Of a DNA stretch of 27,109 nucleotides, positions 5,936 to 8,017 are shown one piece after another. Position numbers and translations under genes: made by a program. The notes beneath the pieces are model-generated. The model was not told where the DNA came from and did no database searches. It saw nothing but the letters and a program-made list of their open reading frames with translations. Origin of the DNA: a virus; the IMG/VR virus record IMGVR_UViG_3300032242_000300, positions 1-27,109 of that record; one strand, given 5' to 3'. The stretch's first letter is position 1; the number at the start of each line of letters is the position of its first letter.

Positions 5936-7463
5936 CAACAAGTACCTACTGATTGAAACAGAAGAACCACAAAAGATTCTTTCTACGATTGCTAAAAGCA
6001 CCGAAACTACTGATGGTTCAGTAGCTGTCCATTGGGGGTTGAAGGAAGCACAGATGTTAAAGATGCTTGGTTGGGATAGCGTGCCGTCCCCAATTGAGCG
6101 CGACTACAACTGGCCCGGACTTTTTAAACCGATGAATCACCAGAAGGAAACATCATCCTTTCTAACCTTGCACCCTCGCGCTTTCTGTTTTAACGAACAA
6201 GGCACTGGCAAGACTGCATCAGCTATCTGGGCATCAGACTATCTACTTGAGCAGGAATACATACGACGGGTACTGGTTATATGTCCTGTGTCCATCATGC
6301 AAGCCGCATGGCAAGCCGACTTGTTTAAATTTGCTGTCCATCGCCACGTAGATGTAGCACACGGAGACCGCAAGAAACGCAAGGCTATTGTTGAAGGCAT
6401 CGCCGAGTATGTTGTCATTAACTATGACGGTGTGGCAATCGTTGAGGAAGAACTTAAGGCTGGTGGATTTGACCTTGTCATCATTGACGAAGCTAATGCG
6501 TACAAGAACCCAAGGACTGAACGATTTAAAACGTTGAGAAGGATCATCACTCCTGATACTTGGATATGGATGATGACAGGTACACCTGCAGCTCAATCAC
6601 CACTAGATGCTTATGGTTTGGCAAAGCTATGCGTGCCGTCAAGAACCCCACATTTATATACATCGTTTCGTGATGTTGTTATGTATCAGATGACACGGTT
6701 TAAATGGATTCCAAAACCACAAGCTCAAAGTATTGTGCATAACTTACTACAACCTGCTATACGATTTGAGAAAAAAGATTGCATTGATTTGCCTGATGTG
6801 ACACACACCTCACGATTTGCGCCGCTAACCCCACAACAATCTAAGTACTACAAAGACCTCAAGAAAGAGATGTTGATTGAAGCAGTTGGCGATGAAGTTT
6901 CTGCCGTAAATGCGGCGGCACAACTAAATAAGTTGCTCCAAATATCTTGTGGCGCTGTATACACCGATACTAAAAATGTAATTGAGTTTGATGCGTCCAG
7001 TAGATTAAACATTTTGTTAGAAGTTATTGAAGAAGCAAGTCATAAAGTTCTAGTATTTATACCTTTTACACATGCACTAAATCTAGTACAAGATTTCCTA
7101 ACAAAAAATAAAGTGACGTCAGAGATAATCAATGGCTCTGTAAGCGTGTCAAAGCGTACCGATATATTTAAAAGGTTTCAAGAGTCCGATGAACCACGAG
7201 TACTTTTGATTCAACCGCAAGCGGCGGCACATGGGGTTACCCTAACTGCGGCGAACGTAATCGTGTGGTACGCTCCTGTCACGTCGATTGAAACATACCT
7301 GCAAGCAAACGCACGTATCGATCGGCCCGGACAGCGTAACCCCATGACAATCGTACATCTTGAAGGTAGTCCAGTAGAAACAAAACTCTACTCGATGCTG
7401 CAAAACAAATTGGACTTCCATAACAAGATTATTGATTTGTATAAAAATGAAATTAACTCTTGA
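5922..7463 (+). CDS. SNF2-family (superfamily 2) helicase/ATPase (513 aa)
   Basis: Both RecA-like lobes are present. Motif I (Walker A) is GTGKT at 94-98, preceded by NEQ as in SWI2/SNF2 enzymes. Motif II is D189-E190-A191-N192 (VIIDEANAYKN), motif III is TGTP at 219-222, and motif VI is QANARIDRPGQ (461-471). These enzymes translocate on duplex DNA and remodel protein-DNA or branched structures, and phages with polA and primase-helicase genes often carry a short stand-alone version. The helicase-associated domains of chromatin remodelers are absent. The DEAN form of motif II differs from the common DEAH/DEGH. No strong ribosome site is seen, and the start overlaps the upstream gene by 14 bases. 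Confidence 0.92.
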   Translation: MQVIDNKYLLIETEEPQKILSTIAKSTETTDGSVAVHWGLKEAQMLKMLGWDSVPSPIERDYNWPGLFKPMNHQKETSSFLTLHPRAFCFNEQGTGKTASAIWASDYLLEQEYIRRVLVICPVSIMQAAWQADLFKFAVHRHVDVAHGDRKKRKAIVEGIAEYVVINYDGVAIVEEELKAGGFDLVIIDEANAYKNPRTERFKTLRRIITPDTWIWMMTGTPAAQSPLDAYGLAKLCVPSRTPHLYTSFRDVVMYQMTRFKWIPKPQAQSIVHNLLQPAIRFEKKDCIDLPDVTHTSRFAPLTPQQSKYYKDLKKEMLIEAVGDEVSAVNAAAQLNKLLQISCGAVYTDTKNVIEFDASSRLNILLEVIEEASHKVLVFIPFTHALNLVQDFLTKNKVTSEIINGSVSVSKRTDIFKRFQESDEPRVLLIQPQAAAHGVTLTAANVIVWYAPVTSIETYLQANARIDRPGQRNPMTIVHLEGSPVETKLYSMLQNKLDFHNKIIDLYKNEINS

Positions 7464-7487
7464 CAAAGTCAACAAATAGAGTATAAT
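7460..7487 (+). promoter_or_regulatory. Consensus sigma-70 promoter with palindromic operator candidate
   Basis: A perfect -35 box TTGACA (7460-7465) and a perfect -10 box TATAAT (7482-7487) are separated by 16 bases, so host sigma-70 RNA polymerase should use it. Transcription would start at about 7494-7496. The -35 box is half of a palindrome, TTGAC-AAA-GTCAA (7460-7472), a plausible repressor site. The promoter lies in the largest non-coding gap of the window, at the very end of the helicase gene, and would drive the genes from 7622 to 12346. Confidence 0.85.
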
Positions 7488-7494
7488 GATTTTT

Positions 7495-7592
7495 GTTGGT
7501 GGTGTGTAATGCGGGTTAGCGCCGTATTTACTTGAATTGTGCAAATACCAAGTAAGTTGAACCACACTGCTTTATGTGAACACATCACCAAC
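7495..7592 (+). promoter_or_regulatory. Structured 5' leader RNA (putative cis-regulatory element)
   Basis: GTTGGTGGTGTGT (7495-7507) pairs with ACACATCACCAAC (7580-7592) in 13 continuous base pairs, one of them G-U. The stem would form at the very 5' end of the transcript from the promoter above. Inside it are two mutually exclusive hairpins: GTATTT/AAATAC (7524-7529 with 7543-7548) and TTACTTG/CAAGTAA (7528-7534 with 7549-7555). The ribosome site GGAG (7611-7614) lies just outside the stem. No known riboswitch family is recognised. It could be a switch, an attenuator or an mRNA-stabilising structure. Confidence 0.6.
7509..7535 (+). other. Possible leader peptide ORF (8 codons)
   Basis: ATG at 7509 opens a short frame, MRVSAVFT, ending at TGA 7533-7535 inside the leader RNA. 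Only a weak GGTGG sequence precedes it, and the region would be enclosed by the 13-bp stem. Translation, if any, would disrupt both internal hairpins. The evidence is position only. Confidence 0.2.
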
Positions 7593-7621
7593 ACCTATAA
7601 AAAACAAATTGGAGTAAGAGT

Positions 7622-8017
7622 ATGGAACAAGATGTTTCTATTGACAAAATCGTCGGCGCTTATATTAAGATTCGCGATTCAAAAGATACTATATACGCAA
7701 AGTATAAGGCTGATACTGCCGAGCTAGAAGAGCAGATGACTACCCTAAAGCAAAAGTTACTTGAGGTCTCTAAGGAGACTGGCGTTACTAGCTTTTCAAC
7801 ACCGCAGGGGACTGCGTATCGAACCGTCAAAGACCGCTATTGGACTAATGACTGGGAAAGCTTCTACACCTTTATGCGCGAGCACGAAGCAATGCAGTTG
7901 CTAGAAAAACGTATTCATCAGATGAATATGAAAGAGTTCTTAGAGAACAATCCTGAGAGCGAACCTATGGGCTTGAACATAGATCGCGAATATGAAATCA
8001 CAATTCGGAGGAAGTAA
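7622..8017 (+). CDS. Hypothetical protein (131 aa), first gene of the second early transcript
   Basis: The start ATG at 7622 has GGAG 7 bases upstream (7611-7614) and follows the structured leader. The N-terminal third is helical and probably coiled coil (YAKYKADTAELEEQMTTLKQKLLEV). A short beta segment follows (TSFSTPQGTAYRTVKDRYW), and the C-terminal half includes FYTFMREHEAMQLLEKRIHQMNM and ends EYEITIRRK. No catalytic motif is recognised. Its place directly before the SSB-like gene suggests a role in DNA replication or recombination, by context only. The TAA shares its last base with the next ATG. Confidence 0.75.
   Translation: MEQDVSIDKIVGAYIKIRDSKDTIYAKYKADTAELEEQMTTLKQKLLEVSKETGVTSFSTPQGTAYRTVKDRYWTNDWESFYTFMREHEAMQLLEKRIHQMNMKEFLENNPESEPMGLNIDREYEITIRRK

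Follow-up and report, generated by a model that had tools for sequence, protein, structure and literature searches.

Evidence for a conserved structured RNA family with two near-invariant loops in phage genomes

Does the 98-nt stretch between a perfect promoter and the gene behind it encode a structured RNA in this virus, and if so, what might that RNA do? The window (the whole stretch of DNA analysed, 27,109 nt of the IMG/VR virus record IMGVR_UViG_3300032242_000300) holds this element at 7495-7592. Its surroundings are a phage replication region, with genes for a DNA polymerase, an exonuclease and a SNF2-type helicase before it, and for a 131-aa Pam3 gp33-like protein and a DUF927 primase-helicase-like protein after it. 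A first-pass annotation, made from the letters of the window, had read the element as a structured leader RNA that is closed by a terminal stem, could switch between two hairpins and perhaps senses a ligand or protein.

The element and its promoter in the window

On the + strand, a sigma-70 promoter (7460..7487) precedes the element, with TTGACA at 7460-7465, a 16-bp spacer and TATAAT at 7482-7487 (12/12 consensus match). The natural reading is a transcription start (+1) at 7495, because the -10 box stops 7 nt before G7495, and this fits the earlier placement of the terminal stem at the 5' end of the transcript. The promoter is recognisable in nearly all same-locus relatives (a set of 35 viral contigs found through the 131-aa protein), degrading in the most distant ones. 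A palindrome, TTGACAAAGTCAA, overlaps the -35 box at 7460-7472. It is kept as TTGACnnnGTCAA in most same-locus relatives, with a longer form (TTCTTGACagaGTCAAGAA) in L029, and is probably an operator for a repressor.

The element itself, also on the + strand, consists of a closing stem and three arms. P1 pairs GTTGGTGGTGTGT (7495..7507, starting at the predicted +1) with ACACATCACCAAC (7580..7592) over 13 positions with one G-U, exactly as first described. P2 is formed by ATGCGG (7509..7514) and CCGTAT (7522..7527), which covary with each other around the loop GUUAGCG (7515..7521), almost invariant across the family. The variable arm P3 (7528..7555) is a TTACTTG/CAAGTAA hairpin around UUGUGCAAAUAC in the window's subfamily, and P4 (7565..7578) comprises CAC, the loop UGCUUUAU (7568-7575) and GTG, with a linker between P4 and P1. 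The same anatomy holds for the family, with P1 closing both ends, GUUAGCG on P2, a variable P3 and the loop UGCUUYAU on P4.

The 98-nt stretch folds at -33.6 kcal/mol (z = -3.6), and none of 200 shuffles was as low; in this single-sequence minimum-energy fold, the P4 register of the window copy is shifted. The 13-bp stem had been called unlikely by chance, which proved only fairly true, as 6/1000 dinucleotide shuffles of the intergenic region reach a stem of at least 13 bp. The single-sequence case is hence good but not decisive, and, as far as sequence goes, the evidence that decides for a real RNA is comparative rather than the window stem alone.

After the element, the downstream gene has its Shine-Dalgarno GGAG and its ATG at 7611..7624 (+ strand), and both are the same in relatives that have only a stub hairpin. 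We found no Shine-Dalgarno sequestration in the window, the GGAG lying outside the element and unpaired with it, nor any terminator after P1 or strong terminator in the operon downstream. The gene itself (7622..8017, + strand) matches PHROG 13900, named 'minor head protein'. This name is doubtful; the operon setting is of a replication type, and the likeness to Pam3 gp33 (DUF7307) falls below the cut-off.

A covarying family in viral DNA

A first pattern, based on the two conserved cores, found at least 120 stretches of viral DNA in many contexts. In total, we found at least 187 unique element sequences (a safer figure than the total of at least 280 copies, as certain contigs occur twice), nearly all from viral contigs and ~75-130 nt in length, while a reversed-sequence control gave 0 copies. 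Patterns with the P4 stem released returned 20 matches in one search and at least 120 in another. Covariance model (CM) E-values are rough, but the copies used typically score 40-80 bits and can hardly be doubted. Long phage records have one copy each, with a few having two in tandem.

Bacterial genomes rarely contain the element: the strict pattern matched 3 contigs in the genome collection, and samples at the order, class and phylum level had it in 1-2 of ~370-400 genomes, every sample including the known carrier G001. The copy in Achromobacter dolens has a gene resembling a phage endolysin in its neighbourhood. Whole-genome CM scans found no copy in seven isolate phages (of Bordetella, Achromobacter, Burkholderia and Macromonas) or in Xp15, Rollin and Effie, and blastn searches with the element, and with 14 diverse copies joined, gave no real match among phage and plasmid records.

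Across these copies, the helices covary well beyond chance. The covariation score was 0.414 in 68 copies (0.155±0.011 shuffled), and 0.473 for all three modelled helices in an alignment of 123 diverse copies, whose members differ by ~15% or more (0.172±0.008 shuffled). In the latter, cells changed on both sides numbered 622, vs 296±16, and every slid control was far lower. Every P1 pair has changed on both sides, with G-U tolerated, and the P2 stem occurs as CGG/CCG, CGT/ACG and CCG/CGG, among others. The middle pair of P4 is A-U in 73 copies, G-C in 32 and C-G in 18. As selection of the 123 rows demanded P4 pairing, we re-tested P4 without that rule, using a pattern free for G or C on each side; all 54 distinct matches were Watson-Crick. 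The element therefore behaves as a structured RNA family, its helices covarying beyond both shuffled and slid controls, and it is almost certainly a conserved one. The structured RNA proposed in the first-pass annotation is thus real, having passed the proposed check for covariation in homologues from related phages.

The loops, by comparison, hardly vary. The P2 loop is GUUAGCG in 122/123 diverse copies and the P4 loop UGCUUYAU in 121/123, although this invariance was partly imposed by the search patterns. Some of it lies outside them: the first two bases of the P2 loop are GT in 50/50 distinct P2-bearing matches to a pattern that fixed only TAGCG, and ATGTG follows CACTGCTT in 68/68 copies, without being fixed in the first search. 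Two further ideas about the loops were not taken up. For a kissing pair between the P2 and P4 loops (AGC/GCU), we searched two compensated variants, and all 21 matches lacked the stems, which neither supports nor excludes the pairing. The P2 loop might also pair with itself, as GUUAGC is self-complementary if wobbles are allowed and the sole variant, GCUAGC, is a perfect palindrome, but this case was too thin.

P3 varies in both length and sequence (median 31 nt). The anti-Shine-Dalgarno-like CTCCT occurs in the P3 region of 21/123 copies vs 1.9 expected, a count inflated by related copies, and possibly pairs with ribosome sites; GGAG is not enriched in this region of the family.

Transcription, gene context and turnover

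In 27 of the 123 copies, where ~2 are expected, the first base of P1 is preceded by a TATAAT-like box (at least 5/6) that ends 5-7 nt upstream of it, and there is no comparable peak at other offsets. We assigned gene contexts to 106 copies with a simple codon-based gene finder, so that gene calls around environmental copies are approximate: 83 were ++, 12 were -+, 11 were +-, and none were -- or inside a gene. The downstream gene is thus co-directional in 95/106, and this strict sense orientation argues for RNA. The downstream ORFs belong to 62 unrelated clusters, and a Shine-Dalgarno with a start codon lies no more than 120 nt away in roughly half of the copies (56 vs 28 shuffled). Two copies (L077 and L285) lie at convergent junctions, followed by a long opposing gene, and hence cannot be leaders of a gene. 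In another two (L156 and L176), the element is closely followed by an intrinsic terminator. A standalone small RNA was nevertheless rejected as the general rule: a terminator occurs within 110 nt in 5/123 copies, the same as on the control strand (5), and a T-run directly follows P1 in 8/123. No protein family was common to all 22 carrier phages by blastp (the widest reached 12/22), a comparison that would miss a phage partner protein that is too diverged.

Other repeated features are found around the element. Next to it in 28 loci (for example L139 ~3462 and L114 ~13429) stands another recurrent hairpin, CCAACACGCATGGGGATTGA...TCAGTCCCCAGCCGTGTTGG, whose loop varies and whose 3' arm overlaps P1; in L046 and L042, a hairpin of this type encloses the element. 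Downstream of the element in L134 and L137, a promoter-like site is followed by a long hairpin and T-run (ending ...TAACGGCTTTTTTTT), which suggests that these phages encode a further small RNA that has its own terminator. In L285 (~8635), L077 (~2165) and L203, a shared CCCGGAAAGACGGGGACTATAA-like string stands immediately ahead of the element or spans its start, and the palindrome seems to reach into the -10 region.

The same-locus relatives reveal how readily the element comes and goes. In near relatives, the leader begins with GTTG at +1 and forms a stem, and many relatives retain the whole 98-nt structure with sequence changes in both P1 strands (GTTGGTAACGCGT/GCGCGTTACCAAC, GTTGATGATGTGT/ACACATCATCAAC). 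Others have a short stub hairpin (e.g. GTTGGTGGGGATCACCAAC) or an unrelated hairpin instead, and the most distant are without any hairpin. The stub relatives showed no target duplication of the kind that a mobile insertion would leave. Mapped onto a tree built from the downstream gene, the element has switched between present and absent at least 4 times if well-supported branches are counted, and parsimony puts the figure at 6. The downstream-gene DNA is identical in L003 and L006, which have the element, and L005, which has only the stub. These changes in presence, together with this identity, indicate that the element is dispensable for expressing the gene behind it. A +1 hairpin is kept without the element in L002, L009, L018, L022, L027 and L034, which have the same promoter. 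Xanthomonas phage Xp15 (L185) has, in the syntenic interval that separates the helicase gene from the homologue of the 131-aa protein (~2858-2917), a TACAAT box followed by a 17-bp hairpin of unrelated sequence; it seems that this promoter favours a 5'-terminal hairpin of any sequence.

Possible roles and known systems

Stems that change freely around fixed loops are the sign of a scaffold presenting those loops. The binding partner is most likely host-encoded, because the carriers have no common gene, and any benefit would be conditional, because near-identical phages differ in element presence. Together, these two points speak for an accessory RNA that has a conserved host factor as its partner. 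The element would then be a portable phage-borne domain, in which P1, formed from the first bases of the transcript, would seal the 5' end, while P2, P3 and P4 would radiate from one junction, holding the P2 and P4 loops in a fixed geometry. A conserved host factor, either a protein or a ribonucleoprotein, might grip both loops, and the RNA could act as an optional decoy or modulator of this factor to the phage's benefit, either forming part of an mRNA leader, the arrangement in the window, or being transcribed separately as a small RNA. We infer both the host-factor binding and the benefit, and the case for an accessory module acting via its two loops seems to us evenly poised. In its favour, compensated loop variants are absent with this architecture (the 21 pattern matches noted above); against it, the Shine-Dalgarno and start codon near half of the copies would also be explained by a role in cis, and loop invariance alone cannot tell which contact is conserved. 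More tentatively, the family could represent a previously undescribed class of accessory RNAs in phages, with a transferable fold that captures a conserved host machine or a defence factor during infection via the two fixed loops and is swapped in and out of a 5' hairpin.

The main rival, which we consider unlikely but credible, is an RNA acting in cis by binding the transcribing RNA polymerase so that it resists pauses or terminators. In phage HK022, putL lies just after PL, and putRNA is such a cis antiterminator, with put on both early transcripts (PMC9378689). The element similarly starts at +1, lies in sense orientation with a mostly co-directional downstream gene, is indifferent to which gene follows, and has no phage protein common to its carriers, just as put needs none. 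However, a scan of the complete HK022 genome with our CM found no copy (the best E, 4.5, came from a chance match of 10 nt), putRNA has two stem-loops and is present on both early transcripts where the carriers here have one copy per phage, copies such as L077 and L285 head no operon, and the operon downstream in the window has no strong terminator. It is also conceivable, though improbable, that only the 5'-terminal stem matters, shielding the mRNA from 5'-end-dependent decay, with the interior as filler. The +1 hairpins of element-less relatives and of Xp15 would suit this, yet a filler sequence would not keep both loops constant while their stems covary across unrelated phages.

A DNA-level element (an insertion, recombination or packaging site, with the palindrome incidental to RNA) appears quite improbable. 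Presence and absence between near-identical flanks and the palindromes that seem to extend into the promoter in L285 and L077 are in keeping with it, whereas the strict sense orientation, P1 exactly at +1, the tolerance of G-U pairs in P1 and the lack of target duplication in stub relatives all speak against it. Very improbable is the ligand-sensing riboswitch or two-state leader of the first-pass annotation. A junction architecture in a 5' leader would suit one, and the alternative hairpins in the window, GTATTT (7524-7529)/AAATAC (7543-7548) and TTACTTG (7528-7534)/CAAGTAA (7549-7555), are present and do share bases. But the P3 hairpin is rebuilt in relatives with other stem sequences (the loop UUGUGCAAAUAC being kept in 11/13), while GTATTT/AAATAC is confined to close kin of the window and has a 5' strand that forms part of the covarying P2. 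There is also no platform for a switch to act on, neither terminator nor sequestered Shine-Dalgarno, and no association with the genes of one pathway, as the element precedes 62 unrelated clusters and is missing from close relatives whose promoter, ribosome site and gene are otherwise the same. A protein-binding core, the other part of that proposal, is plausible.

Whichever role applies, a conserved fold that is absent from Rfam and present in many environmental phages points to an unknown phage-host contact point. The near-invariant loops make the target of the element directly testable, and the two covariance models and 123-row alignment provide a basis from which a new RNA family can be defined.

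Structured RNAs carried by phages, and leader RNAs, are already known kinds. Like HK022 putRNA, the element is a phage RNA that can stand in a leader at or near +1, has ~70-100 nt with hairpins and conserved residues, and needs no phage protein; unlike it, the element has a closing stem and three arms, and its single copies occur in varied places, some of them non-leader. Betaproteobacteria-1 RNA (RF02932) is likewise a structured RNA of Betaproteobacteria, and both contain UAGCGCC, but the arms differ, and the RF02932 model matches its own site and not the element. One such RF02932 copy (90.6 bits) lies at 1476-1593 of the phage contig L137, ~190 nt downstream of the element. GOLLD, ROOL and similar motifs (PMC2864571, PMC12286853) are also candidates from comparative genomics, several of them phage-linked and many with their function open, but GOLLD and ROOL are far larger, and the Rfam-listed motifs give no match at the element. 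As in a tRNA-like cloverleaf, a closing stem and three arms surround a junction; however, the loops are not D- or T-loops (the P4 loop is UGCUUYAU), a linker separates P4 and P1, and ARAGORN found 0 tRNA genes in the window. Rfam 15 gave no match at the gathering cut-off in the window (best sub-threshold E 0.22) and none at the element in 18 carrier loci, and we found neither the motif strings in this context nor any description of the element in the open-access literature. Relative to Rfam 15, which does not cover Burkholderiales-1, an older candidate motif listed without an Rfam number (PMC2864571), and to that literature, the fold and its two loops appear new.
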